Part shown: piece after piece, positions 12,365-27,070 of the stretch
Position numbering within the stretch: position 1 is the first letter of the stretch
Layout: each line of letters opens with the position of its first letter
Assembly (NCBI GenBank): GCA_016788185.1
Contig: JAEUTF010000242.1
Coordinates: 1 to 33,278, forward strand
Direction of reading: 5' to 3'
Source: Bacteroidia bacterium
GTDB lineage: Bacteria > Bacteroidota > Bacteroidia > AKYH767-A > OLB10
Length of the DNA: 33,278 nucleotides
Translations under genes and position numbers: made by a program
Notes under the pieces: model-generated
Told to the model about the DNA's origin: nothing
Seen by the model: the letters and a program-made list of their open reading frames with translations, nothing else
Database searches by the model: none

Positions 12365-12380
12365 AAGGCCGAAGGGCCTT
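12365..12380 (+). promoter_or_regulatory. Leader hairpin upstream of the sugar transferase
   Basis: Perfect 6-bp inverted repeat AAGGCC-GAAG-GGCCTT. No T tract follows, so it is not an intrinsic terminator. It ends 43 nt before ATG 12424 and covers the possible TTG start at 12379. Confidence 0.4.
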
Positions 12381-12423
12381 GAGTAAAAGCATTACCTTGA
12401 TGTTGTTCCAGCGAAGAAGAAAA

Positions 12424-13458
12424 ATGAAAGAAGCCCTGTTAAAGGATATTCAACCGGAGGTAAGGAAGTTCCTCAGCAAGTACGCCGACCTGAAATCGTC
12501 GGCTACGCGGGTGCTGATCACAACCACGGCCTTCAATGTGGAAAACCTGGAAGAGCATTCGTCGCAGGCCATTATCAACCTGAAGAAAATAAACGACATC
12601 CGATTCGTCAATAAATTTCAGGAAGCCATCAACGAGCGTTTGCCCATCGGCGGTGTGTATGCCGGCTTTGTTGAAACACAGGAGCAACGAAAATACCGCC
12701 TGCTCAAGAAGTTTATGCCCGGATTGGCGCATTTGTATTTTGTTTTTGATTTCATTTTTAAAAGGGTATTTCCGAAGCTGCCCTTCTTCAAAAAACTGTA
12801 TTTCTTCGTAACCAACGGACGGAACCGCGTGATGTCAAAAGCGGAAGCACTCGGCCGCCTGGCCTCCTGTGGTTTTAAAATCATCGAGGTGAAGGAAATC
12901 GGGAATTACACCTATTTCGTGGGAAAGAAGGAGCGTCAGCCCTATTTTGATCTCAGTCCTTCCTACGGTCCGCTCTTTACCATGAACAGGATCGGGAAAG
13001 ACGGGAAGATGATCCAGGTGTATAAGTTTCGTACGATGTATCCCTATGCAGAATACCTGCAGGAGTACATCTATGAGCAGAACAAACTCGCTTCCGGCGG
13101 TAAATTTGCTGAAGATTTCAGGATTACCTCCTGGGGTAAATTCATGCGCAAATGCTGGCTGGACGAGTTGCCCATGGTGATGAATGTATTGAAGGGCGAT
13201 ATTAAGATTGTGGGCGTGCGGCCTTTGAGCAAACACTATTACAGTCTTTATACGAAGGAGCTCCAGGAAAAAAGAATTTATTCGAAGCCGGGATTACTGC
13301 CGCCTTTTTATGTGGATATGCCCTCTACCCTGGATGAAATCATCGAGTCGGAACTTAAATATCTGCGGGCCTATGAAAAGAGGCCGGTGCTGACCGATAT
13401 CCGGTACTTTTTCTCCATCTGTACCAATATCATTTTCCGCAAAGTGCGCAGCAATTAA
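12424..13458 (+). CDS. Bacterial sugar transferase (phosphoglycosyltransferase-like) with an extended N-terminal region
   Basis: A 344-residue protein whose C-terminal half is a bacterial sugar transferase domain: MNRIGKDGKMIQVYKFRTM, then DFRITSWGKFMRKCWLDELPMV and NVLKGDIKIVGVRPLSK. Such enzymes transfer a sugar-phosphate from a nucleotide sugar to undecaprenyl phosphate, starting polysaccharide or glycan assembly at the inner membrane. The N-terminal half is unusual: a hydrophobic stretch at about 85-120 (LYFVFDFIFKRVFPKL...) is separated from the catalytic core by about 60 soluble residues, rather than joined to it as in the canonical family. I start at ATG 12424, preceded by a purine-rich stretch; ATG 12400 and TTG 12379 are in frame. 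It converges with the exosortase/glycosyltransferase operon and may supply its lipid-linked sugar. Confidence 0.85.
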   Translation: MKEALLKDIQPEVRKFLSKYADLKSSATRVLITTTAFNVENLEEHSSQAIINLKKINDIRFVNKFQEAINERLPIGGVYAGFVETQEQRKYRLLKKFMPGLAHLYFVFDFIFKRVFPKLPFFKKLYFFVTNGRNRVMSKAEALGRLASCGFKIIEVKEIGNYTYFVGKKERQPYFDLSPSYGPLFTMNRIGKDGKMIQVYKFRTMYPYAEYLQEYIYEQNKLASGGKFAEDFRITSWGKFMRKCWLDELPMVMNVLKGDIKIVGVRPLSKHYYSLYTKELQEKRIYSKPGLLPPFYVDMPSTLDEIIESELKYLRAYEKRPVLTDIRYFFSICTNIIFRKVRSN

Positions 13459-13520: not shown

Positions 13521-15011
13521 TTATTTTGTGCTGCGCCGGTAAACGGTATAATTCCCAATGGTCGTATCGGCTTCGTACTTGTTCAGGCTGACGTCAAGAA
13601 ATTCCTGAAGGGGTTTGTTCTTTTTTTCAATGATGAAGGGGATGCGGCCGTTTTGAACCAGTTGTCCGAATGCATCGAAATGAAATACACCAAGCGGACG
13701 GGTAAAATAGAGCGCCACTTCCCGGCAGGGAAAAAGCGCCCGGTCGGCCAGGTGCAGATTGAGGGTGCTTTCCTTGTGGAAATCCGTTAGTATCCATTCA
13801 CCCGTTTTCAGTTCAGGAAGTACATAAGCCGCCACTTGTCTGGCATGGGCATAGTCGGCTTTGGCTTTTTTCATCAGCCCGATATCACCCCAGCCCTTGT
13901 CGTTCGCGGCGGCCAGCAGGAAAAAGGGGGAAAGGGCCAGTGCAAATAAAACGGAGTTCCCGTTCAGGTAGGTTTCCTGCCGCAACAGCAGGGCCAGGCC
14001 AAAAATCGACAGGGCGATAAACTCAAGGTAATAATTCGGTCCTGACCCCGCCTTGAAGGAAGTCAGGGTGGCAATTACAAAATACCAGGCGATGCCAAAG
14101 CCCAGAAAAGTATGCAGAGTAGTGCGTTTGTCCTTAAAGAGCAGATAGGCCACCATGAATCCGGCAGCCAGAATGTAGGAGAATTTGAGGAAGAAATTTT
14201 TCAGGATGACTTCTGTAAACCAATTGACATTGATTCCGTTTTTAACGCCGTCGACTACATTCAATTTGAAATCAGGGATGGAGCCGGGTAAAATCCAAAG
14301 GGCAAGCAGCACACTGCAGGCCAGCAGGCCGACTGCGTACAATAGCCATTGCCGGGTGGATTTTTCAATGAACAGATAATGGATAAAGCAATACGCCGCA
14401 AGAAACACACCGGTTTGCTTGGTGGCGATGGCGAGGGCGGTTATGGCCCCGGCGAGAAAGGCGCCGGGCAGCCATTTCATGATCCGGCCCTCCGGAAAAG
14501 TATAGGATTTGATCAGCAGGCTGATGGTGGCGAGGAAAAAGAAAAGGTAAAGATTGTCAACACGGCCGTAAATAATACCGGGTATGGAAAGAAAGTATAT
14601 CAGTGCCATGGACCAGGCCGTGAGTGTTGGCAGGGATAGAAACCGGATAAGGGTACGGGCAATCAGCACCACCGAAAGGCAATCGATCAACAGGCAGAAA
14701 AAGCGGCTGGTGATCAGCACAGCGTGTACGTCATGGCTGTTGCCTGATAGCTGCACCAGCGATTTCACAAGATAAAAGTGTAGCGGCATGTACTGGATGA
14801 TGGGAAAGGGAGGCATTTCCGGATGGGTGTAAAGGAAACTGCCTTCCAGCATCCTGATGATGCCATACATAACGTTGATGGATACCCCCCCGGTTTCCGG
14901 AAGATAAGAGCCTGCCAGCAGGATGCGCAAAACCAGCAAACAGGCCGCCATTACCCCTATCAGAGCAAAGAGCAGATGCCCGGGCCGGATAATCCTGAAA
15001 ACCCCTTTCAT
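13521..15011 (-). CDS. Multi-pass GT-C-like glycosyltransferase
   Basis: A 496-residue inner-membrane protein with about 10-11 hydrophobic helices and a soluble C-terminal part of about 120 residues. The region IIQYMPLHFYLVKSL in the first periplasmic loop and the helix YGRVDNLYLFFFLATISLLI are typical of GT-C mannosyl/arabinosyltransferase-like proteins (GT39/GT87 type) using polyprenyl-phosphate sugars. The exact acidic catalytic residues are not certain. The gene overlaps the methyltransferase by 4 nt and is the last of a five-gene operon headed by an exosortase. It could add a sugar in the periplasm to a lipid-linked glycan or a processed peptide; that is inference. Confidence 0.75.
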   Translation of the reverse strand: MKGVFRIIRPGHLLFALIGVMAACLLVLRILLAGSYLPETGGVSINVMYGIIRMLEGSFLYTHPEMPPFPIIQYMPLHFYLVKSLVQLSGNSHDVHAVLITSRFFCLLIDCLSVVLIARTLIRFLSLPTLTAWSMALIYFLSIPGIIYGRVDNLYLFFFLATISLLIKSYTFPEGRIMKWLPGAFLAGAITALAIATKQTGVFLAAYCFIHYLFIEKSTRQWLLYAVGLLACSVLLALWILPGSIPDFKLNVVDGVKNGINVNWFTEVILKNFFLKFSYILAAGFMVAYLLFKDKRTTLHTFLGFGIAWYFVIATLTSFKAGSGPNYYLEFIALSIFGLALLLRQETYLNGNSVLFALALSPFFLLAAANDKGWGDIGLMKKAKADYAHARQVAAYVLPELKTGEWILTDFHKESTLNLHLADRALFPCREVALYFTRPLGVFHFDAFGQLVQNGRIPFIIEKKNKPLQEFLDVSLNKYEADTTIGNYTVYRRSTK

Positions 15012-15718
15012 GGTTTTTGCCAGATTCCTATGAGTGATTTGCCGGTACTGAAAAGGATGAGCGGGTCGACGGCTTTTGATACCGGAACGATCAGGTTGTC
15101 CCAGAATTTAACTTCCTGTGCCGTCGGGTACTCTTTTTTCAGAAATAACTTGTTGGTCAGCGAAGCCAGCAATCCCAGGCTGTCGAGGTAAAAGAGCTCT
15201 TTGCTCTTCAACGATGCGGGAACAGCCTGCCGGAGTAATTTTTTGTTATACCGGCGGTAGTGACCAATGGCTTTATCAAAGGGGCTGAACAACCATTGGT
15301 GTGCAGGCACCAGAATGATCAGGTGTCCGCCTGCTTTAAGCAGTCCGGCGGCCCGGCGAAGTTCAGCCCTGTCGTCCTCGATGTGTTCGATGACATCGAT
15401 GTACACGATCGTGTCGAACAGGGAAGGGAGGGTATAGTCCTCCGTGGTTCCGGTCTTTACACTGATTTTCGGGGGCAGTTCTCCGGTACTTATTTTTTCA
15501 CTGATTTTTTCCGAAAGGGAAGCATCGGGTTCGAGGCAGACCCAGGTATCCACCTGTTCATTCAGGAGGTGCAGCGTGGTTTCTCCGATACCGGCTCCGG
15601 CTTCCAGCACATGGCCGTGTATGTAGGAGCTCAGGCGTTTCCGGTAATATGTCTTCCAGTTCCTGGCATGCCGGAACAACTCCAACTCGTTGCCGATATA
15701 ATGGGCCGCCGTGTTCAT
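15008..15718 (-). CDS. Class I SAM-dependent methyltransferase in the exosortase operon
   Basis: A 236-residue methyltransferase with SAM loop VLEAGAGIGETTLHLL (about 36-51), acidic strand end CLEPDASL, and the post-motif VYIDVIEHIEDD. HYRRYNKKLLRQAVP in the second half is common in methyltransferases of glycan clusters. It is cytoplasmic with no membrane segment. It overlaps the genes on both sides by 4 nt, so the three are translationally coupled. The likely target is a sugar or lipid intermediate made by the neighbouring glycosyltransferases; the substrate is not visible in the sequence. Confidence 0.85.
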   Translation of the reverse strand: MNTAAHYIGNELELFRHARNWKTYYRKRLSSYIHGHVLEAGAGIGETTLHLLNEQVDTWVCLEPDASLSEKISEKISTGELPPKISVKTGTTEDYTLPSLFDTIVYIDVIEHIEDDRAELRRAAGLLKAGGHLIILVPAHQWLFSPFDKAIGHYRRYNKKLLRQAVPASLKSKELFYLDSLGLLASLTNKLFLKKEYPTAQEVKFWDNLIVPVSKAVDPLILFSTGKSLIGIWQKP

Positions 15719-16647
15719 TTGTTTCCGGAAATAAAATTCTGATATTCAAGAGCGGGAATAAAATGTCGTTGCGTACGGTACGATAATACATTGAAGAGGA
15801 GGAGCAGTGAGATCAGAAAGGCCTGGAAGATGATGATCAGAAAACTGAGCACGACAAAGGAAGCCCAGCCCGGTATGGCGAAAGGAGTGAAAAAACGGAT
15901 GGCCGTTACCGTGAGTATTCCGATCAGGGCGATGCAGATCAGGAAAAAGGTAGACACCAGAATCCTGACGGCCAGGATGTCGGTGTATACCGCAATGGCG
16001 CTGAGTCCGTGGATGACCAGCGTAAAGAAATTCATTTTTGAATGTCCGTGATACCGGGTGCCCCTGTCCAGCGGAAGGGCGCCGTAGGGCAGGCGGGAGC
16101 GTATGATGCCGCCTGAGAAATGGTTCCAGATGTCGGAAACATACACGAGGTTATTGACCTTCCCGAAGGGAATGGCGCAGAAATTCCCGAAGCTGATCCT
16201 TTGCCCGGTAAGGATACGGTAAATGCTTTTATACAGGAAGTAGAAAAAACGGAACCAGAATCCTTCGTAGCGCCGTTTTCGGGTGCCAAAAATAATTTTA
16301 CCGTTTTCATTCGCGGCTTTTGCCAGCAACGCAGGAATGTCTGAAGCTTTATCTTCCCCGTCACCATCCATCACCACCACATAATCGGCATTGGCATGGT
16401 CATTCAGAAAACAAAGTCCGATAGCAATGGCACGCTGGTGTCCTACGTTCCTGTTCAGCCGGATAATCCTCAGGTCGCCGGCAGCAGAATCAAAGCGGTC
16501 TTCTTCCCGGTCGGTGGAGCAATCGTCCACCACCACATACTGCACTTCATGATCAGGATAAGACTGAAAACATTTTCTGATATCCCTGATCAGGCAGGCA
16601 CAGGATTCCCAGTCGTTGAAAACAGGAATGAGAATATTGATCTTCAT
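15715..16647 (-). CDS. GT2 glycosyltransferase, polyprenyl-phosphate (GtrB/DPM1-like) type
   Basis: A 310-residue protein. A GT-A catalytic domain occupies about 1-215: NILIPVFNDWE at the N-terminus, VVVDDCSTD (nucleotide binding, D41/D42), and the metal-binding DxD at 94-96 (VVMDGDGED). Two C-terminal transmembrane helices follow at about 229-295. This layout matches GtrB/DPM1-like enzymes, which transfer a sugar from a nucleotide donor to a polyprenyl phosphate on the cytoplasmic face. The product would be a substrate for a GT-C enzyme such as the one encoded two genes later. It starts 20 nt after the membrane partner gene and overlaps the methyltransferase by 4 nt. Confidence 0.88.
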   Translation of the reverse strand: MKINILIPVFNDWESCACLIRDIRKCFQSYPDHEVQYVVVDDCSTDREEDRFDSAAGDLRIIRLNRNVGHQRAIAIGLCFLNDHANADYVVVMDGDGEDKASDIPALLAKAANENGKIIFGTRKRRYEGFWFRFFYFLYKSIYRILTGQRISFGNFCAIPFGKVNNLVYVSDIWNHFSGGIIRSRLPYGALPLDRGTRYHGHSKMNFFTLVIHGLSAIAVYTDILAVRILVSTFFLICIALIGILTVTAIRFFTPFAIPGWASFVVLSFLIIIFQAFLISLLLLFNVLSYRTQRHFIPALEYQNFISGNK

Positions 16648-16667
16648 TGGAGCGAGGTAGACCCGTA

Positions 16668-17189
16668 TTAAACGTTGAATGTTCCTTCCGGGTTCGGTTT
16701 TTTAACAAATCCGAAGGCTTTCACCAATGCCGCGATGGCCAGTATGAGGAAGGGAGATAAAAAAAGGTCTTCGATGTAATGGGAGAGTCCCGTGCTGAGC
16801 CGGTAATCCACCCCGAAATCTCCCAGTTTGAGCAGGATAAAACAAATGATCATGTAGAGGAAATACAGGATGAACATCAGCTTACCGATAAACACCGACC
16901 TTGAATAAACCAGGAGCAATACGCCGGCGATGACCAGGTAAAGGAAACTGAAGAGGACCGAAGACTGCAGTTTTGCGGGCAGTTTAACGCCGAGGGTACC
17001 CTTCATCTCCGATTTTTCAAATTTTGCAACCTCCGGCTTCGGATAGCGGTTAATGAACATGAAGGTTCCTTGTTCAAAAATCAGAAGTTTCTTTTCTCTT
17101 TTGAAACCAAAAAAAATCAAAGCGGCAGTGGCCATGATCAGCACCGCGATGCGCCAGGGGTCGGATAATTCTGCTAGGCGCTTAAGCAT
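16668..17189 (-). CDS. Exosortase-associated four-helix membrane protein (XrtX-associated-like)
   Basis: A 173-residue inner-membrane protein. Predicted helices lie at about 13-29, 76-96, 102-122 and 143-161, with a soluble loop of about 45 residues between the first two (KREKKLLIFEQGTFMFINRY...). I see no catalytic motif. It overlaps the end of the exosortase gene by 8 nt, so the two are translationally coupled and probably work together. Its size and position fit the small membrane partner described beside Bacteroidota exosortases of the XrtX type; I assign this from context and general layout, not from a searched match. Confidence 0.65.
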   Translation of the reverse strand: MLKRLAELSDPWRIAVLIMATAALIFFGFKREKKLLIFEQGTFMFINRYPKPEVAKFEKSEMKGTLGVKLPAKLQSSVLFSFLYLVIAGVLLLVYSRSVFIGKLMFILYFLYMIICFILLKLGDFGVDYRLSTGLSHYIEDLFLSPFLILAIAALVKAFGFVKKPNPEGTFNV

Positions 17190-17745
17190 TTGTTTTCTCC
17201 GTATTGACCAGCAGGTTCAAATGGCTGTAGCGGTTGGTCCAGATAATCCAGAACAAAAAAATAAATGCATACACGATGATGGTAAAGGTGTAATGATGAT
17301 TGAAGTCCAGGTATTCGGGCGCTTTAAACTGAATCAACGCCAGGGCCACCGTTCTTCCTACATTGATCAGGTGAATGAGTGCCGAGCCTGCAAGAATAAA
17401 CCACCATTTGTTTTTCCAGTCGCCTGGAAAGCAAATGATGAATCCGGCAAAAAGTACAAAGAGTTCGAGCCCGTTGCAGGGATTGCCCACGCCCACCATC
17501 TCTTCCTGCCGGATGCAAACAATGGTTTGACGGTCACCGGGCTGGGTGCTTCCCTCAAAGCCCGCAAGTTTTAAAAGGTAACCCGCATCCGTAGCCACCC
17601 GGTAATTGAGGTAAGTATCGAGTTTTCCATGGGGAGCTATAAAGTAGTCGTAGGAAATGAACCAAAAGATGTATAGAAAAACAGCCTTGACGATAAACAG
17701 CACAATGGCTTTTTGACGGGGATCCTTGTTTAAGGCATTAAACAT
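17182..17745 (-). CDS. Exosortase/archaeosortase family transpeptidase, XrtX-like
   Basis: A 187-residue multi-pass inner-membrane protein with the exosortase catalytic triad in order: Cys90 in GNPCNGLELFVLF, Arg131 in INVGRTVAL, and His150/His151 in FNHHYTFTIIVYAF. Exosortases cut C-terminal tripartite sorting tails (short motif, hydrophobic helix, basic end) in the periplasm and are thought to join the product to an acceptor, often a polysaccharide-linked lipid. It heads an operon with a membrane partner, two glycosyltransferases and a methyltransferase. A tiny peptide with a matching tail is encoded 84 nt upstream of its start. The subtype (XrtX) is assigned from the PID-type substrate next door and is less sure than the family. 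Start ATG at 17745; a candidate promoter abuts it. Confidence 0.85.
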   Translation of the reverse strand: MFNALNKDPRQKAIVLFIVKAVFLYIFWFISYDYFIAPHGKLDTYLNYRVATDAGYLLKLAGFEGSTQPGDRQTIVCIRQEEMVGVGNPCNGLELFVLFAGFIICFPGDWKNKWWFILAGSALIHLINVGRTVALALIQFKAPEYLDFNHHYTFTIIVYAFIFLFWIIWTNRYSHLNLLVNTEKTNA

Positions 17746-17749
17746 CGGG

Positions 17750-17778
17750 CTAATTTAATAAGCTTGGGGATACTCCAA
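17750..17778 (-). promoter_or_regulatory. Candidate promoter of the exosortase operon
   Basis: On the minus strand TTG (17778-17776), 18 nt, then TAAATTAG (17757-17750), seven of eight matches to TAnnTTTG. It lies just after the terminator of the peptide gene and so close to ATG 17745 that the message would be almost leaderless. Confidence 0.4.
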
Positions 17779-17804
17779 AAAAAAAGGTCAGCAAAATGCT
17801 AACC
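17777..17804 (-). terminator. Rho-independent terminator of the PID-CTERM-like peptide gene
   Basis: Stem GGTTAGCA (17804-17797) and TGCTGACC (17793-17786, minus strand), 8 bp with one G-U pair and a 3-nt loop, followed by nine T (17785-17777). It separates the peptide gene from the exosortase operon. Confidence 0.85.
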
Positions 17805-17829
17805 TTTCATTTCTTATGACAGGAAAAAA

Positions 17830-18009
17830 TTATTTCTCTTTCTTCTTGTCATAAATCTTTTTGATGCCGTAGCCGGCCCCGGCGGCAAGTAATGCGCTTA
17901 ATCCGCCATCGATGGGCACATTCGGATTGCTCTTTTGTGCAAACATAGGCAGGGCAAACATTACCATGAACACGAGGATCGGGAGGGCTTTATAAAATGT
18001 CTTTTTCAT
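17830..18009 (-). CDS. Tiny exported PID-CTERM-like peptide, probable exosortase substrate
   Basis: A 59-residue protein. Residues 1-25 are a signal peptide (MKKTFYKALPILVFMVMF... ending MFAQ). Only about nine residues (KSNPNVPID) separate it from the tripartite tail: PID motif at 32-34, GG, a small hydrophobic Gly/Ala helix (LSALLAAGAGYGIK), and a basic end (KKIYDKKKEK). This matches the organisation of Bacteroidota PID-CTERM sorting tails. If an exosortase cuts near PID, the released product is only about 7-10 residues. The start is ATG 18009; a longer frame from TTG 18042 would begin inside the promoter -10 element. It has its own promoter and terminator and lies next to the exosortase gene. 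Confidence 0.8.
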   Translation of the reverse strand: MKKTFYKALPILVFMVMFALPMFAQKSNPNVPIDGGLSALLAAGAGYGIKKIYDKKKEK

Positions 18010-18041
18010 GACTTCTGGTTTAATCAAGTGGTTATACTGCA

Positions 18042-18070
18042 ATTATACGGTTTTTTAACCGGCCTGTCAA
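18042..18070 (-). promoter_or_regulatory. Strong promoter of the PID-CTERM-like peptide gene, with palindromic spacer
   Basis: On the minus strand TTGACA (18070-18065), exactly 17 nt, then TATAAT (18047-18042): a perfect classical sigma-70 promoter. It also fits the Bacteroidota form (TTG-N20-TATAATTG). The spacer holds the inverted repeat CGGTT-TTTT-AACCG (18048-18061, plus strand), a possible operator. Predicted leader is about 27 nt. Confidence 0.7.
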
Positions 18071-18141
18071 GATGTAATCTTTCAGGATCCGGAATGTCGG
18101 CATAATTTCTGGTTGATTGTCAGTGTTTTGAATATAAAAGA

Positions 18142-18168
18142 AAAAGGGGGAGGGGTACTCCCCCTTTT
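18142..18168 (-). terminator. Rho-independent terminator of the large T9SS protein gene
   Basis: Perfect 11-bp stem AAAAGGGGGAG (18142-18152) and CTCCCCCTTTT (18158-18168) with a 5-nt loop; on the minus strand it continues into a T-rich tail (to about 18137). It begins 7 nt after the stop at 18175. Confidence 0.9.
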
Positions 18169-18174
18169 CTGATA

Positions 18175-21100
18175 TTATTCAACAATCATCCTGATTTGCT
18201 CGATGGTACCGTTCATTTCGATCACCACAAAGTAAACACCGGCAGCCATTTCGCCTGCATTCACCTCACGCTGATTGACTCCGGCAGCAGCCGTTCCTGC
18301 CTCATTCATCAACACGCGACCAGTCACATCCACAACCTTCAGATTGAAGTCAGCACCTTCGGTACCGTTGAATACGATGGTAGCACGATCCGATACAGGA
18401 TTCGGGAAGAGGTTCAGACCGGTTACAGATCCTTGCTCTCCTACACGAACACAGTGCGAAACGCTGATTGAAATTCCATTGAGGATACGGTTGGCACTGG
18501 TTCCGCAGGCATTGGAAGCATTTACAGAAACGCTCAGACCGCTGGCAGGGTTAGTACCCCAGGTAACCAGGATGTCTTTGGTACCTTGTCCGGAAGTAAT
18601 GGTAGAACCGCCGGGAACCGTCCACAGGTAAGAACTAGCGCCTGAAACTGTACCTACACCATACGTTACGCCGCTTTGTCCGGGGCAGATGGTAAGGTCA
18701 CCGGTAATCACACCGGGTTGTGCAGGTGCACCGGTAACGGCAAGGCTGCGGGCTGCACCGGTACCACAGGCATTGGTACCTGCCACAGTGATATTACCAC
18801 CGGCATAAGCACCGTCAAAATCAACAGTGAGGATATCGGTTCCTTGTCCGTTTACGATCGTAACGCCGGCAGGTACCGTCCAGAAATAACCGGTAGCACC
18901 TACCACATTGGCTGCAGTATAGCTAACACCCGTTCCACCGCAAACACCGGTGGAAGGTCCGCTGATGGACGCCGGGGCAACAGGAGTATTCAAACCAACG
19001 GCACGTGTACGGGCAGGTCCTGTTCCGCAGGCATTGGCTGCGCTGCAGGAAACGGTTCCACCGAGATACGAGAAGTCAACGGATACGGTAATGACATTGG
19101 TTCCTGCACCGGCCGTGATGGTCATACCAACAGGCAGTGACCAAACGTAGTTGCTGGCACGGGCTACGCCCAATACGGAATATACACCGTTGTCGCCGGG
19201 ACAGAGTTTAACCGGTCCTGAGATAGAGGAAGGACGTACAGGAACGGTGTAATTGATGTCGACAGGAAGTGAACTTCCGGTACCTGCACCGCAGGCATTG
19301 GAAGGCACTACGCTGATGTTTCCAATGATTCCGTTGCTGACAGCAGAAGGAGGCCATGAAACAAAGATGGAATTGGTACCCTGTCCGGATACGATGACCA
19401 TGCCGCTGGGTACGGTCCAGTTGTAAGCACTGGCATCAAACACAGGAGCGATAGAGAAGGTTCCTGAACCGGTAACCACCGCCATGCATTGTACGGCAGG
19501 ACCACTGATCGGACCGGCAACGAGTACATTCTCGTCGGTTTGACCGTTACAGTCATCATCTATACCGTTACAGATTTCAATACCTGCAGGATTGGCTGTG
19601 GCTACAGCATCGTTGCAATCCTGGTTATTGGTGACATAACCAACAGGCATCGGGCAAAGTTGGGTCGTGTTGTTCGGATCACCATAACCGTCACCGTCCA
19701 GGTCGGCATAGAAGGTTTCAGATGGAGTTACAACTACATCAAAACTGCATACAACGGCGGGGTTCACGCCATCGTTGGCCGTGTAGGTAACCGTAGTGGT
19801 GCCGATCGGGAAGAAATCGCCGGGGTTGTGGCTGCTGGTGAATGACAAAGGAGCAAGGCAGTTGTCAGGATCTGCAGCAGTAGGAGCGGTCCAGCTTACG
19901 TTGGCGCCGCACAAGCCTGTAGTGGCAGGTGTGGAGGACGTAGAAGGACAATTGCTGATCACCGGTGCATCATTGCTGATCTCAGTCAGCAGGATACCCC
20001 ATGAACCGTTGGTGCCGCTCGAATATCCGTCAACCAGCAGGTAATAGGTGGCACCGGGTGTCAGACAAACCGGCATGATGTAAGAATGATACGGCGAACC
20101 GGAAGAGTCATCGTTGGCGGCAATTAAAGTAGCGCCGCCACTCAGCAGGGCATTGCAGTTGGGGGCACTGTACAGGGCAAACTGGCTGTCCCAAAGAGAG
20201 AAGGCGGGGTTCAGACGTATGCTCATTTTTCCGGAAGCAGGAGCCGTTACCGCAAACCATACGGAGTTAACAGTGCCGGAAGTACACCATCCGTTTTGTG
20301 TATTACATCCGGTTACCGGAGGAACCACTTCACCCACCTGACCGGTGGAGCCGATGTTGGTGTAAGGGCCGCTAGCACCCATGCTGGTAAGCGGAATCGC
20401 GTTGCAAACATCGTCGCCGTTAACGGCAATCACTACAGTAAGGATGTTGGAGTAGGTGGTGCAGGTGGCGGAAGTAGCTTGCAGACGTACATAGAATGTA
20501 CCGCCTCCGCTGGACTGAAGGGATACGTTATCCAGGGTGGCACCCGGTACGTTGGTATAAGGTCCGCCGATCGCTGTTGCGGTCTGCCACTGCAGGTTAC
20601 CGATGTAAGAGCCGGTAGAATAAATCAACGGAGAGTAGGTTACACCGCTGCCAGGGCCGCTGATGATGCCGGCGTCGGCTGAACCATCAAAGGCTACCAG
20701 GACACTGCTGGAGGTGCTGGAAAGACCGGAGTTGGAACAGGTTACCACGCAATGATAATAGGTGTTTGAAGTGGGAGCTGCAGCATAGGTGGCCTGATCA
20801 GCACCGGAAATAGGAACCCAGTTGATGTCATCGGAAGATTCTTCCCACTGGAATGTAAATCCGGTTTCAGCAGCTAAGCCGGTCTGACTCAGGTTGGCAA
20901 CGCCACCCGGGCAGATATATGCGGCGCTTGAAACGGCGGTAGTAGTATTCGGTGTGCCACTGCAGGGCGGAGGACTGATCAGTTCAACATCATAATCTTC
21001 CACTTCACCCCAGGTCGAGGTGGGGTTGATGCCGCAGGCCTGTGCTGCGGTAAAGGTTGCATCCACACCGCCGCGGATACGCAGCCTGGTTAAACCGGCT

Positions 21101-22428
21101 ACAGCGCCCGGAGGAACAGTGAAAACAAAGTTGGCAGTACCGCTACTTCCCGGATTCACCGTGGTAGCACTCAGGGCCTCGGAGGCGTCCAGTACACCAT
21201 CCGCGTTAAAATCGATCCAGGCATTGGTAAACTGGTTCGGGTCGGATTGAACGGTAACGCTCAAAGTATAGGTGTTGCCGATCATCAGTCCGGTAGAAGC
21301 TACGCCCGGGTTAAAATAGGTGTAGTTACCAACAGTTCCCGGACAGCCTGTGCTCGGATTGGAAAGTGTATTCAATACTACGTTGGTGATTCCGTCGCCG
21401 GAACAGCTGGTTTGCTGGGCTACGCAATAACAGTTCAAGAGACTGCCCATGGCTACATACACCGGGGTGGAAACGCCCGGATTGGGATCGCCGGAACAGG
21501 TTACTACGCATTGATAATAGGTAGCTGCTGTTTGGGAAACAGTCTGGCTGGCAGAGTTGGTGCCGAAACTGGTCCAGGTAGAACCATCGGGAGAGGATTG
21601 CCAGTCATAGCTTACGCCAAGTCCGATGGTGGAGTTCTGAAGAGAGAGTCCGAAGGAGGTACCGCTGCAAACAGAAGCTGCTGAAGAAATGGTATTACCC
21701 GGGTTCGGCTGGCCGGAGCAGGGCGTTGTAGAATAGTTGATCTGGGTATTGTAAAAACGAGCCTGGGTGGTCCAACTGCTGTTGGTACCCGCGATCGCTG
21801 CACTGCTTGAGGTTCCCATGGCCTGGTTACCCGCAGAGGTATATTGCCACAGGAAGGAATTGGTCGTAAATGGAGAGGTCATGGCACCTGCGGGGAACCA
21901 CTCGATATAGGCTTCGATCGCCCCACCGGCGTAGGTGAAACCGGAAGTGGGCCAAACCCAGTAACCGGTAGCGGTGGGCATATTCGCCGAGTTGATCGTG
22001 GCCGAGTAGGCGAGTGTAGCACCGGAGATCATGGTGTTCCAGGACGTACCGGAGGCCAGCGTGGTAGCTGAAGAGTTTTTCAGGTACACATTCAGGGTCC
22101 AGGCATTGGCACCGGAAGGGGCACCGTTGTTCGTCTTATTGTAACCCCAGCCGGTAATGCTTGCTCCGGCAGTAACCCCGGCCGTACTCAATTGAGCCGC
22201 GGTCAGGAGTTGGATGGACTTGGAATGGTGAAACGAACTGGTAGAGGCGGAACGGTAAATGGGTGTGCCATTTGTACCGGAGGCCGTCAGGGTACCTGTG
22301 CCGATGATTGCCGTCTGGGCCATGAGATTTGTTCCCGTCAGAACAAACATCAGCATGCCCAACATGGCTTTCCAGCAAATGCTCCTCCCTCTGAGAAGGG
22401 AAGTTTTTGTGTAGCTTTTGTTTTTCAT
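18175..22428 (-). CDS. Giant T9SS-exported multidomain surface protein (PPC-like, GEVED, HYR, metal-binding, PKD-like repeats)
   Basis: A 1417-residue secreted protein. A signal peptide (about 1-38, ending LMAQ) is followed by an N-terminal beta domain (about 40-230) and Ig/PKD-like segments. A GEVED domain lies at about 395-480 (WIDFNADGVLDASEAL ... WGEVEDYDVEL), a PPC-like domain at about 670-815, and a HYR domain at about 821-896. A Cys/Asp-rich metal-binding motif (DLDGDGYGD ... GIDDDCNGQTDE) is at about 906-968. Four tandem PKD-like repeats cover about 968-1325, and a type A T9SS sorting domain (LFPNPVSDRATIVFNG ... GVYFVVIEMNG) ends the protein. No protease or hydrolase site is visible, so adhesion or matrix function is likely. 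It has a good promoter with a leader of about 150 nt and a strong terminator. The PKD-like repeats are related to those of the divergent metalloprotease. Confidence 0.92.
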   Translation of the reverse strand: MKNKSYTKTSLLRGRSICWKAMLGMLMFVLTGTNLMAQTAIIGTGTLTASGTNGTPIYRSASTSSFHHSKSIQLLTAAQLSTAGVTAGASITGWGYNKTNNGAPSGANAWTLNVYLKNSSATTLASGTSWNTMISGATLAYSATINSANMPTATGYWVWPTSGFTYAGGAIEAYIEWFPAGAMTSPFTTNSFLWQYTSAGNQAMGTSSSAAIAGTNSSWTTQARFYNTQINYSTTPCSGQPNPGNTISSAASVCSGTSFGLSLQNSTIGLGVSYDWQSSPDGSTWTSFGTNSASQTVSQTAATYYQCVVTCSGDPNPGVSTPVYVAMGSLLNCYCVAQQTSCSGDGITNVVLNTLSNPSTGCPGTVGNYTYFNPGVASTGLMIGNTYTLSVTVQSDPNQFTNAWIDFNADGVLDASEALSATTVNPGSSGTANFVFTVPPGAVAGLTRLRIRGGVDATFTAAQACGINPTSTWGEVEDYDVELISPPPCSGTPNTTTAVSSAAYICPGGVANLSQTGLAAETGFTFQWEESSDDINWVPISGADQATYAAAPTSNTYYHCVVTCSNSGLSSTSSSVLVAFDGSADAGIISGPGSGVTYSPLIYSTGSYIGNLQWQTATAIGGPYTNVPGATLDNVSLQSSGGGTFYVRLQATSATCTTYSNILTVVIAVNGDDVCNAIPLTSMGASGPYTNIGSTGQVGEVVPPVTGCNTQNGWCTSGTVNSVWFAVTAPASGKMSIRLNPAFSLWDSQFALYSAPNCNALLSGGATLIAANDDSSGSPYHSYIMPVCLTPGATYYLLVDGYSSGTNGSWGILLTEISNDAPVISNCPSTSSTPATTGLCGANVSWTAPTAADPDNCLAPLSFTSSHNPGDFFPIGTTTVTYTANDGVNPAVVCSFDVVVTPSETFYADLDGDGYGDPNNTTQLCPMPVGYVTNNQDCNDAVATANPAGIEICNGIDDDCNGQTDENVLVAGPISGPAVQCMAVVTGSGTFSIAPVFDASAYNWTVPSGMVIVSGQGTNSIFVSWPPSAVSNGIIGNISVVPSNACGAGTGSSLPVDINYTVPVRPSSISGPVKLCPGDNGVYSVLGVARASNYVWSLPVGMTITAGAGTNVITVSVDFSYLGGTVSCSAANACGTGPARTRAVGLNTPVAPASISGPSTGVCGGTGVSYTAANVVGATGYFWTVPAGVTIVNGQGTDILTVDFDGAYAGGNITVAGTNACGTGAARSLAVTGAPAQPGVITGDLTICPGQSGVTYGVGTVSGASSYLWTVPGGSTITSGQGTKDILVTWGTNPASGLSVSVNASNACGTSANRILNGISISVSHCVRVGEQGSVTGLNLFPNPVSDRATIVFNGTEGADFNLKVVDVTGRVLMNEAGTAAAGVNQREVNAGEMAAGVYFVVIEMNGTIEQIRMIVE
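18450..19530 (-). repeat. Four tandem 87-residue (about 261-bp) PKD-like repeats
   Basis: Each unit has an (I/V)-(S/T)-G opening, a Cys-x-G region, Y-x-W-(T/S)-(V/L)-P, a GxGT(N/D/K) turn, and a closing NACG(T/A). The NACG blocks lie near 18505, 18767, 19028 and 19290, so the period is about 261-263 bp. Units differ in sequence, so this is protein-level repetition and not recent DNA duplication. Confidence 0.8.
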
Positions 22429-22924: not shown

Positions 22925-25900
22925 ATGGCCATCGCCTGCCCCCCTTCCACCAAGTGGTTCCGAATTGTATTCTTCCTGCTGTTATGGACCATAACGGCCA
23001 GTGTATCCGTAAATGGACAGGATTCGCATTCTTATTGGTCGGAATGGAGCGCCGACCGCTACCGGACCGCACCGTCCCGCTATACCACGGCTGCCGCGTA
23101 CAAAGCCTATCGGCTGGATCTGAACCGGATCAAAGCCGTCCTGTCCAATGCGCCGCGTGAATTCACGGTTCTGGCATCGGCGAGCCCGGTCGCCATGCAT
23201 CTGCCCTTGCCGGATGGCCGGATGGCCGGATTCCGGATGGTGGAATCCTCTGTCATGGATCCGGCGCTGGCTGCGGCATACCCGGGTATCAAAACTTATT
23301 CGGGCCAGGGGGTAGACGACCCTTCCTCCATACTTAAAGTCAGCATCACGCCTTTCGGCCTGCATGCCATGATACTTTCTCCTTCAGGCAGTTTTTTTAT
23401 TGATCCCTGGGAGCAGTTCAACACCGCTGATTATATCGTGTATGAAAAAGGCGATTTGCAGTCGTACCGGAGCTTCTCCTGCGAAACAGACACGCTGGCT
23501 TTGAATAAAGGAAGAACCTTCACACCCATCGCCGGCGGGCAGACCAACCGGTCTCACGGTACCCAGCTACGTAACTACAGGCTGGCACTGGCATGTACCG
23601 GCGAGTATGCCGCGGTTTTCGGGGGCACCAAAGCCGGAGCCCTGGCCGCCATGGTGGTTTCCATGAACCGCGTGAACGGCATTTATGAATCGGAAGTAGC
23701 GGTGCGGATGACCCTCATCCCCAACGATACCCTGATCATTTATACCAATGGTGCCACCGACCCCTATACCAACAGCAACGGGTCCACCATGCTGGGGCAA
23801 AACCAGACCAACATCGATGGCGTCATCGGATCGGCCAATTACGATGTGGGGCACGTTTTCAGCACCGGCGGCGGAGGAGTGGCGCAATTGAACGTGCCTT
23901 GTGTCAGCGGGTCCAAAGCCAGAGGCGTTACCGGCCTGGGCAGCCCGGTGGGGGATGCGTTCGACGTGGATTACGTGGCGCATGAAATGGGGCACCAGTT
24001 CGGGGCGCTGCATACCTTTAACAGCAGTACAGGCTCCTGCAGCGGCAACCGGTCGGCTTCGGCTGCCTTTGAGCCGGGGAGCGGCATTACCATCATGGCG
24101 TATGCCGGAATTTGCGGGACCGATAACCTCGATGCGCACAGCATCGCCTATTTTCATACCTATAGCTTTGATCAGATTGTTACGTTCATCACCACGGGTG
24201 CCGGCAACACCTGTCCGGTCAACACCGCGACCGGCAACAATCCGCCCACCGTCACGCCGGCGGGCCTGCTGTACAACATTCCTTTTCAGACCCCCTTCGT
24301 GCTCACCGCCACCGGGAGCGACCCCAACAACGATCCGCTTACCTATTCGTGGGAGGAGTTTGATCTGGGAACCGCCGGTGCCTGGAACAATCCCACAGGC
24401 AATGCCCCCATCTTTCGGCCTTTCTCACCGGTGAGCAGCGGTTCAAGAACCTTTCCGAAGCTTTCGGATATCCTGAACAATACCACCACCATCGGTGAAA
24501 TTCTGCCCACGTATGCCAGAACGCTTAAATTCAGGGTAACGGTGAGGGATAACCGTGTGGGCGGAGGCGGCGTGATGCATATCGACGATACGGTGAAAGT
24601 GAACGTGATCAATACGACCACACCCTTCAGCGTGACCGCGCCGAATACCGCCCTCACCTGGTTTGCAGGGCAGAATGCCAACGTCAGCTGGAATGTTTCC
24701 TCCACCCATCTGGCTCCCATCAGTTGCGCTTCCGTGAACATTCTCCTCTCCACCGATGGTGGAAATACATTTCCGATTACCCTTCTGTCCGGCACGGCCA
24801 ACGATGGTACCGAAAACATCGTCGTGCCGGTGGCCATTACCAACCAGGCCCGGGTGAAAGTGGAGGCGGCCGGCAATATATTTTTCGATATTTCCAACGC
24901 GAACTTTACGATTCAGTCGGGTTCCGCCGTGCTGACCAGCCTTTCCACCGATGTCATCAGCCCGACTGGATTGTGTGCAGGACAGGCCCTGAACGTGTCT
25001 TTTGCAGGCGATGGTCCTCCGAACAGCGGCAATACCTATACCGCCCAGCTTTCCAATGCCAGCGGCTCCTTTGCTGCTCCTGTAGCCATCGGATCCTTAA
25101 GCAGTACATCATCAACCGGCACCATCTCCTGTATCATTCCCGCCGGTACGGTGCAGGGTACCGGGTACCGGATCCGCGTCATGGCCTCCAACCCCGCCGT
25201 CACGGGTACCAATAACGGAGCAGATCTTTCCATTTTTGCTCCGCTGGGAAGTACCAATACGGTCAGCGGTTCCGCCACGGTTTGCCAGGGTCAGTCCGGA
25301 CTTGTTTACAGCATCGCTCCGGTTTTGAATGCCACCTCCTATGCCTGGACCCTCCCTGCGGGATTTACCATCACCTCCGGGAGCGGGACCCCATCCATAA
25401 CGGTTAGTATATCCGCAGGTGCTGGCGGTGGTATTATCAGCGTGGTTCCGTCCAATCCCTGTCAGACGGGTGCCGCTTCTTCCGGGTTCAGCGTCTCCGT
25501 CAACCCCTTGCCCGCAGCGGCAGGCCCGGTCAGCGGCAGTTCCGTGGTATGTGCGGGTCAATCCGGTGTGCAGTATTCGCTGGCGCCGGTGAGCAATGCT
25601 GTTTCTTATGCATGGACCCTGCCGGCAGGTGCCAGCGTGGTGGCGGGTGCCGGTACGAATGTTATCACGGTGGATTTCGGACCGTTTGCCGTCTCCGGAA
25701 ACATCTCGGTTCAGGGGGTCAATGCCTGTGGCAGCGGAACGGCCTCCATTTTGTCCATCACGGTTGGCGTCACGCCGGTGGCACCTTTAATCAGCGCCGC
25801 AGGTTCCACCACGGTATGCAGCCCCAATACGGTTTCCCTGACTTTCACCCCTTCGCCCGGTCTGAATTACCAGTGGAGGAAAGACGGCGTTCCTATTCAC

Positions 25901-27070
25901 GGCGCTACCGCGTCCAGCTACCAGGCGGCCTCCGCTGGTAATTACGACGTCGTGGCATCCATACAGGCGGTGGGTTCACAACTCTTTACCAACAATACCG
26001 CCGTTTCCATACCTGACAATTCCTGTACGGGGGGAAGCAGCAGCATTTCAGTCAGCGGGTATAATTTCCCGGTACGCTCTTCCGGAATCTACCTTCGCAT
26101 GAATATTACGCATACCTATGTGGGCGATCTCGACATCTTTCTTGAAGCGCCTAACGGCCAACGCCTGGGTCTGAGCGATCAGACCGGAAACGGGAACAAC
26201 GGGGGTGATAATTTTACCAATACGGTCTTTGCCGACTCCGGTACAGCGATTCTTCCGACCAGCGGCGCACCCTATACCGGTCTGTACAAACCCTGGAACG
26301 CCGTTTTTACAGTTTCGTCTTGTGCCATCAGCACCGGCCTTACTTCGTTTGCCGGATTCAACGGCGGGGCCATCCTGCCCAACGGCACCTGGAGTCTGCG
26401 TGCCTACGACCGTTTCACCACGGATGTCGGGAGCATCACCAGCTGGTCCTTGTTCATGCCATATTTCAGCAGTACCTGCACCGCGGTATCCAACACGGTT
26501 TCGGTGACGGTAAACGCGCCGCCACTGATCTCTTCCTTCAGTCCGGCCACCGGAACGGCCGGAACCCTGGTAACCATCAATGGGAGCGGCTTCAGCGGAG
26601 CGAATTCCCTTGCCTTCAATGGCGTGCCGGCCGCAGGCTTTACGGTGGTGAACGACGGCCAGATAACGGCTACGGTTCCCGCCGGTGCCACCACAGGACC
26701 CCTCAGTGTAAGTACGGCATGCGGCACTGCTGTATCGGCCGCTTCCTTCAACATTCCATCCTTCCTTACGCTGAATCTTACCGTGCTGGTTCAGGGCCTT
26801 TACAACGGAGGAGGCAACATGAGAGCGGTGATTTCTCCGACTCAAAGCGATTCGGTCACCGTGGAGCTGCACCAGGCCCTGGCGCCCTACGCCACGGTTT
26901 ATTCTTCCACCGCTGCCATGAACCTCGCCGGACAAACCTCCTTGAATATCCCTTCTGGATTTAACGGAAACTCATATTACATCGTCGTGCGTCACCGCAA
27001 TGCGCTGGAGACCTGGAGTAAATGGCCCGTGCTGTTCGGACCTGTGATCAATTATAACTTCAAGCAATAA
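22925..27070 (+). CDS. Reprolysin-like secreted zinc metalloprotease with PKD-like repeats, P-domain and TIG domain
   Basis: A 1381-residue secreted protease. The signal peptide covers about 1-32 (ending VSVNGQ) and a propeptide-like region extends to about 200. The catalytic domain has the metzincin site HEMGHQFGALH (zinc ligands H353, H357, H363; catalytic E354) and a Met-turn at M391 (IMAYAGICG). After it come Ig-like domains, two PKD-like repeats (about 775-950), a proprotein-convertase P-domain (about 1037-1178), a TIG/IPT domain (about 1198-1277), and a final module at about 1279-1381 (LNLTVLVQGLYNGGGNM ... YYIVVRHRNALETWSKWPV). I see no type A or B T9SS sorting tail after this module, which is odd for such a protein. 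It has a strong bidirectional terminator; its promoter is unclear. Confidence 0.92.
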   Translation: MAIACPPSTKWFRIVFFLLLWTITASVSVNGQDSHSYWSEWSADRYRTAPSRYTTAAAYKAYRLDLNRIKAVLSNAPREFTVLASASPVAMHLPLPDGRMAGFRMVESSVMDPALAAAYPGIKTYSGQGVDDPSSILKVSITPFGLHAMILSPSGSFFIDPWEQFNTADYIVYEKGDLQSYRSFSCETDTLALNKGRTFTPIAGGQTNRSHGTQLRNYRLALACTGEYAAVFGGTKAGALAAMVVSMNRVNGIYESEVAVRMTLIPNDTLIIYTNGATDPYTNSNGSTMLGQNQTNIDGVIGSANYDVGHVFSTGGGGVAQLNVPCVSGSKARGVTGLGSPVGDAFDVDYVAHEMGHQFGALHTFNSSTGSCSGNRSASAAFEPGSGITIMAYAGICGTDNLDAHSIAYFHTYSFDQIVTFITTGAGNTCPVNTATGNNPPTVTPAGLLYNIPFQTPFVLTATGSDPNNDPLTYSWEEFDLGTAGAWNNPTGNAPIFRPFSPVSSGSRTFPKLSDILNNTTTIGEILPTYARTLKFRVTVRDNRVGGGGVMHIDDTVKVNVINTTTPFSVTAPNTALTWFAGQNANVSWNVSSTHLAPISCASVNILLSTDGGNTFPITLLSGTANDGTENIVVPVAITNQARVKVEAAGNIFFDISNANFTIQSGSAVLTSLSTDVISPTGLCAGQALNVSFAGDGPPNSGNTYTAQLSNASGSFAAPVAIGSLSSTSSTGTISCIIPAGTVQGTGYRIRVMASNPAVTGTNNGADLSIFAPLGSTNTVSGSATVCQGQSGLVYSIAPVLNATSYAWTLPAGFTITSGSGTPSITVSISAGAGGGIISVVPSNPCQTGAASSGFSVSVNPLPAAAGPVSGSSVVCAGQSGVQYSLAPVSNAVSYAWTLPAGASVVAGAGTNVITVDFGPFAVSGNISVQGVNACGSGTASILSITVGVTPVAPLISAAGSTTVCSPNTVSLTFTPSPGLNYQWRKDGVPIHGATASSYQAASAGNYDVVASIQAVGSQLFTNNTAVSIPDNSCTGGSSSISVSGYNFPVRSSGIYLRMNITHTYVGDLDIFLEAPNGQRLGLSDQTGNGNNGGDNFTNTVFADSGTAILPTSGAPYTGLYKPWNAVFTVSSCAISTGLTSFAGFNGGAILPNGTWSLRAYDRFTTDVGSITSWSLFMPYFSSTCTAVSNTVSVTVNAPPLISSFSPATGTAGTLVTINGSGFSGANSLAFNGVPAAGFTVVNDGQITATVPAGATTGPLSVSTACGTAVSAASFNIPSFLTLNLTVLVQGLYNGGGNMRAVISPTQSDSVTVELHQALAPYATVYSSTAAMNLAGQTSLNIPSGFNGNSYYIVVRHRNALETWSKWPVLFGPVINYNFKQ
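25245..25775 (+). repeat. Two PKD-like repeats in the metalloprotease
   Basis: Two units of about 265 bp, each with VSGS-x-x-VC-x-GQSG, Y-x-W-TLPAG and a GxGT turn; the second ends in VNACGSG. They are clearly related in pattern to the four repeats of the divergent T9SS protein at 18450-19530. Confidence 0.75.

Follow-up and report, generated by a model that had tools for sequence, protein, structure and literature searches.

The stretch of DNA considered here, called the window below, is a contig of 33,278 nucleotides (JAEUTF010000242.1) in the 3.2 Mb, 97% complete genome assembly GCA_016788185.1 of a Bacteroidia bacterium. Its minus strand encodes, in this order, a 59-residue peptide with a PID-type tail, an exosortase, a membrane partner, a family 2 glycosyltransferase (GT2), a methyltransferase and a glycosyltransferase of the GT-C type. 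An initial annotation, made from the sequence alone, had read the last five as one operon in which an exosortase comes with a built-in lipid-sugar pathway, and the peptide directly upstream as a single tiny substrate. Its gene models are all real: the five genes, their strand, the 59-residue peptide, the overlaps of 8, 4 and 4 nt and the 20-nt spacing match the open reading frame (ORF) coordinates.

Exosortase X and its single peptide

The exosortase (17182..17745, minus strand) is a member of the NCBIfam family exosortase X (XrtX; NF046081), which it matches at 199.4 bits against a cut-off of 170. It also passes the XrtF model (95 bits, cut-off 90), at about half the score of the XrtX model. 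Three of its predicted catalytic residues, Cys90, Arg131 and His150, are invariant across 26 aligned XrtX proteins; His151, which had been counted with them, varies. The peptide gene (17830..18009, minus strand, 59 residues from the ATG) lies 84 nt upstream of xrtX and matches the PID-CTERM model NF046080 at 48.3 bits (cut-off 26), with the sorting signal placed at 17845..17919 on the same strand by a six-frame match (E=3.3e-12). The precursor consists of an N-terminal signal peptide, a mature segment of about 10 residues (QKSNPNVPID) and a tail made of GG, a hydrophobic stretch and KKIYDKKKEK. As both proteins score above curated cut-offs, neither the exosortase nor the peptide tail is, at the level of sequence, a chance resemblance.

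The gene that follows (16668..17189, minus strand) overlaps xrtX by 8 nt and encodes the putative XrtX-associated partner (XAP), with four predicted transmembrane segments. Its match to NF046082 covers residues 12-157 at 30.3 bits (E=2.9e-7) and is sub-threshold, the cut-off being 75. A homologue of the partner lies directly downstream of XrtX at 96 of 117 distinct loci across the class, and the peptide directly upstream at 83 of them; these two counts are lower bounds, as contig ends cut some loci and divergent tails (e.g., PIDSG or PLDD) escaped the pattern. The predicted fold of the partner has no match in the PDB, and XrtX has no sequence relative there. Exosortase, peptide and partner are thus recognizable, with a weak match for the partner, as a system that NCBIfam already catalogues.

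The pairing of enzyme and peptide extends well beyond this genome. Of 395 genomes sampled across the class, 102 have XrtX above cut-off; a PID-CTERM match was found in 92 of these and in 78 of the 293 others (Fisher 1e-30). Exactly one such peptide was present in 81 of the 102, so a single target is usual. Within the taxonomic family of the window, which comprises 8 XrtX genomes and 16 others in our comparison, the peptide was found in 7/8 and 0/16, respectively (p=2e-5), and the XrtX of the remaining genome sits at a contig end. A six-frame search of the 97%-complete window genome returned no further PID-CTERM above cut-off. This bears out the proposal of a single tiny substrate with a tripartite tail beside its exosortase, and because there is just one such peptide in the genome we regard the system as dedicated.

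PID frames listed across the class are nearly all 50-195 residues long. By a heuristic estimate over 89 peptides the median mature segment is 25 residues, compared with about 10 in the window. Mature segments are rich in glycine and proline, and a CWPPPC-like motif precedes PID in 53 of 83 peptides; it is missing in the window's family. At most XrtX loci outside this family the mature segment ends in CWPPPC[IV]P[IV]DGG, a possible disulphide or modification site.

Several known systems resemble this one in part. The window follows the catalogued exosortase X / PID-CTERM system (NF046081, NF046080, NF046082) in its curated matches and in the order peptide-XrtX-partner found at most of the 117 loci; it departs from it in its sub-threshold partner, its peptide devoid of CWPPPC and a terminator that splits peptide from enzyme. 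The XrtF system of Flavobacterium johnsoniae (Fjoh_1448, Fjoh_1449) likewise pairs a Bacteroidota exosortase with a small membrane partner. Mutants deleted for either gene colonise surfaces less and form less biofilm, and no XrtF substrate was identified in that work (PMC10936215), whereas the adjacent peptide of the window is, judging by the genes alone, the evident substrate. In rhombosortase / GlyGly-CTERM systems, a target that is alone in its genome tends to adjoin the enzyme gene, an arrangement termed a dedicated system (PMC3237569). The window shares the single target encoded beside its enzyme; the rhombosortase differs in being a serine rhomboid enzyme with larger targets. PEP-CTERM/EpsH exosortases have the same tripartite tail and Cys/Arg/His residues, and exopolysaccharide export genes also lie near half of the XrtX loci, but genomes with PEP-CTERM/EpsH often carry twenty or more targets (PMC3237569) as against one tiny target here.

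Expression of the peptide and separability of the sugar genes

On the minus strand the peptide gene is preceded by TTGACA-17-TATAAT (18042..18070), a 12/12 match to the consensus, and the gap between peptide and xrtX contains an intrinsic terminator (17782..17808) with a 12-bp stem and nine T. The upstream element, a putative promoter of the peptide, is of the E. coli type; relatives carry a Bacteroidota-type TAnnTTTG box at that place. The terminator hairpin, GGTTAGC-loop-GCTAACC followed by a T-run, is shared by five relatives (G003, G005, G006, G008 and G019) and the terminator is kept in 6/7 loci of the family. An unrelated terminator-like hairpin occurs at many Hymenobacter loci. Overall, peptide and xrtX are 40-250 nt apart at 24 loci, of which 16 have such a hairpin, and at most remaining loci the gap is too short. 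With its own promoter-like site and terminator, the peptide would be transcribed largely alone and in excess over the enzyme, and we take this architecture to suggest that more peptide than XrtX is produced. Accordingly, the peptide gene does not simply open one uniform operon.

Downstream of the partner lies what we call the cassette. Its first gene (15715..16647, minus strand), 20 nt past the partner, encodes a GtrB/ArnC-like polyprenyl-phosphate glycosyltransferase of the GT2 type (PF00535), which aligns over residues 2-274 of 280 with the structures of ArnC and the sll0501 glycosyltransferase and matches the phage PHROG GtrB family at 86 bits. The second (15008..15718, minus strand; 4-nt overlap with GT2) is a class I S-adenosylmethionine-dependent methyltransferase (PF13489, 43 bits). 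The third (13521..15011, minus strand; 4-nt overlap with the methyltransferase) has no Pfam match above cut-off and no sequence relative in the PDB, but its predicted model, of moderate quality (pLDDT 71.5), has ArnT (5f15) as its best PDB match (E=3.3e-6). This fold supports the GT-C-like assignment made for it before, as an ArnT-like enzyme.

The cassette does not consistently accompany the exosortase. All 8 XrtX genomes of the family share one site, bounded by a sugar-phosphate transferase, LysE, DUF4249 and DnaK as far as contigs reach. The sugar-phosphate transferase (12379..13458, plus strand, convergent; a polyprenyl sugar-phosphate transferase of the Bac_transf family, PF02397, 95 bits) has the same position in relatives with and without XrtX and marks the end of the conserved site. 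Between the partner and this gene, the cassette is present in three of the eight genomes (the window genome, G018 and G019); in the other five (G003, G004, G005, G006 and G008) the partner is directly followed by the sugar-phosphate transferase. In G018 the methyltransferase is intact (65.5% identity over 235 residues, tblastn). Conversely, the whole cassette occupies this site in G017, a 96% complete genome of the same genus, with 56% identity for the methyltransferase and 48% for the GT-C protein; the interval from the reprolysin-like gene of G017 to its GT2 contains neither an exosortase nor a partner or peptide. Outside the family, neither the methyltransferase nor the GT-C protein was found at any XrtX locus examined (single-sequence phmmer, E<=1e-5). 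Within it, the cassette occurs in 3/8 XrtX genomes and 1/16 others, an association that is not significant (Fisher p=0.09). A lipid-sugar pathway built into the exosortase system is therefore not supported, and the conservation of glycosyltransferase genes beside the exosortase that such a pathway would entail fails in five of eight family loci. As far as gene content can tell, the cassette is a separable module of the ArnC/GtrB-plus-ArnT-like kind and not part of the exosortase system.

ArnC/ArnT and Gtr pairs make a polyprenyl-phosphate sugar, which is then transferred outside the inner membrane. By analogy, the cassette probably transfers a polyprenyl-phosphate-linked sugar to some acceptor outside the cytoplasm. 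It resembles GtrABC and ArnC-ArnT modules in its combination of a GtrB/ArnC-like GT2 with an ArnT-like GT-C protein, and differs from them by the methyltransferase between the two transferases; no GtrA flippase gene is present among the ORFs of the cassette.

Two further observations concern the GT-C gene. The G019 cassette holds three tandem GT-C paralogues (L017, 11740-16236), and a distant homologue in G035 (L278, 1248-4204; a 58% complete genome with no XrtX match) adjoins a UbiA prenyltransferase gene. The sugar-phosphate transferase was itself considered as a partner of XrtX and rejected, as full-length homologues occur in many relatives that lack XrtX, within polysaccharide-type clusters.

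Secreted cargo genes beside PID-CTERM peptides

Immediately upstream of the peptide, on the same strand, the window encodes a 1417-residue protein (18175..22428) with a type A sorting tail of the type IX secretion system (T9SS; TIGR04183, 40.7 bits, cut-off 23), and a terminator at 18141..18169 (minus strand) separates the two genes. A large protein with a T9SS type-A tail occupies this position, directly upstream and on the same strand, at 39/117 XrtX loci, and lies directly beyond the partner on the same strand at 10/117. Forty-eight of these XrtX-adjacent proteins form one BLAST-linked family, and the four members scanned have no Pfam or NCBIfam name beyond the T9SS tail.

The same neighbours are found where XrtX is not adjacent. 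Using a cargo profile built on the XrtX-adjacent members and then tested on other loci, we found that 38 of 55 PID peptides encoded away from XrtX lie immediately downstream, on the same strand, of a T9SS type-A or same-family gene, compared with 15 among 304 other genes that encode 150 residues or more (p=6e-26, a value inflated by relatedness). The 55 peptides come from about a dozen taxonomic families, and 3 of their loci also hold an exosortase-like gene. Their distribution across these families speaks for a genuine pairing of cargo and PID-CTERM genes. In G274 (5/5) and G413 (4/4) every strong member of the cargo family precedes a PID peptide; in G098 four of ten do. No mention of the pairing was found in the literature searched. 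In some genomes the arrangement of a PID gene right behind a large T9SS type-A cargo gene, seen among loci L291-L345 and the class XrtX loci, is repeated: L300 has it in tandem and L306 has it two times.

We tentatively propose, holding it somewhat short of even, that PID-CTERM peptides are dedicated partners of T9SS cargo. A peptide processed at the inner membrane and a giant protein secreted across the outer membrane would be encoded as a two-gene cassette, of which some genomes have duplicates, and exosortase X and the T9SS would act on one surface structure. The window would then be a diverged case whose cargo has been replaced. Its cargo has a body of another type (PKD-like, GEVED and HYR domains) that does not match the cargo family profile at E<=1e-5, no such cargo is present at that position in relatives G003, G005, G006, G008 and G019, and the best cargo-family match in the window genome is weak (44 bits). 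For this genome itself, the T9SS link is thus suggestive only.

Interpretation of the locus

We consider it probable that the locus encodes an exosortase X system of the dedicated kind, composed of the exosortase, a partner with four transmembrane segments and one tiny PID-CTERM precursor made in excess, next to sugar genes that form a separate module. In this reading Sec would export the precursor, signal peptidase would remove its N-terminus and the tail would keep it in the inner membrane, where XrtX would cut at or near PID by means of Cys90, Arg131 and His150. Judging from archaeosortases and other sorting enzymes, XrtX would then probably, with its partner assisting, transfer the peptide of about 10 residues onto a lipid or a glycan, and the product would be a very short surface peptide. 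The cassette would share the genomic site, neither needed by the exosortase nor dependent on it. Several points weigh against this reading. The partner falls below the NF046082 cut-off (30.3 vs 75 bits), and the literature searched yielded no biochemistry of XrtX and nothing on its function or substrate chemistry. The pairing is not absolute, with 10 XrtX genomes of the class lacking a PID match at E<=0.001. In three genomes, moreover, the three cassette genes come right after the partner and overlap tightly, which makes co-transcription, and some functional link in those strains, possible.

The initial proposal was of a small glycolipid-peptide, formed when XrtX or the GT-C protein joins the peptide to a methylated polyprenyl-linked sugar that the five genes make as one operon. 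Overlaps of 4-8 nt on one strand and the polyprenyl-phosphate-sugar type of GT2 and GT-C speak for it, as does a change from Cys to Ser in the peptides of cassette loci (QKSNPNVP and QKSDPNVP, compared with Q[NS]CNPNVP) that could provide a sugar acceptor, although only two cassette loci have a readable peptide and relatedness confounds the comparison. However, the cassette is missing at five of the eight family XrtX loci and at all other loci examined, it is complete without an exosortase in G017, and its association with XrtX in the family falls short of significance. We hold this proposal to be very unlikely for the window, and as a general model we reject it on the loci of relatives. The initial interpretation was thus half right, with the dedicated tiny-peptide exosortase retained and the built-in sugar pathway, an attractive but unsupported idea, corrected. 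Another reading, in which the processed peptide is released and acts as a short signal or pheromone, would suit its very short mature segment and the GP-rich composition with its CWPPPC-type motif, but the peptide has no conserved receptor or regulator gene as a neighbour, and XrtX loci lie instead near exopolysaccharide export genes and T9SS cargo. The predicted excess of peptide over enzyme, which fits a structural role as well, favours, in our view, a structural element or surface component over a signal, and we find a pheromone unlikely. A more serious contender, if one we would still bet against, is that the XrtX-processed peptide anchors, caps or licenses a T9SS cargo at the cell surface. 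It draws on the frequent adjacency of cargo and PID genes both away from XrtX and at XrtX loci, some of which are ordered XrtX-partner-cargo-peptide, on the consistent pairing in G274 and G413 and on the T9SS type-A protein directly upstream of the window peptide; the different body of that protein, its absence from five relatives, the 44-bit best match in the genome and the six strong members of G098 without an adjoining PID peptide count against it.

The dedicated exosortase X system is itself already catalogued; what is new is the T9SS link, which lies outside the window's own lineage. With a target that in nearly every case is a lone, very short peptide, an enzyme that can be separated from neighbouring sugar genes and peptides that are usually encoded beside T9SS cargo genes, exosortase X turns from an orphan annotation into a system that can be tested, for instance in culturable Hymenobacter.

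The association of exosortases with exopolysaccharide genes is known. Consistent with it, Wzc, Wzt, Wzm, NeuB, Wzx or NusG-like genes are present in the fetched flanks of 59 of the 117 XrtX loci (raw count). In the family, a Wzc-type kinase is uninformative as a co-occurrence marker, being present in 24/24 genomes. An Rfam scan of the window gave no match. Three relatives have a tRNA-Met gene immediately upstream of the PID-XrtX unit (L020, 8304-8378; L021, 7260-7334; L022, 2437-2511), which may mark an integration point. Finally, a 1381-residue reprolysin-like, PKD-type secreted protein (window 22925-27070, plus strand) is conserved beside the site in G003, G019 and the XrtX-minus G017, with 54-63% identity.

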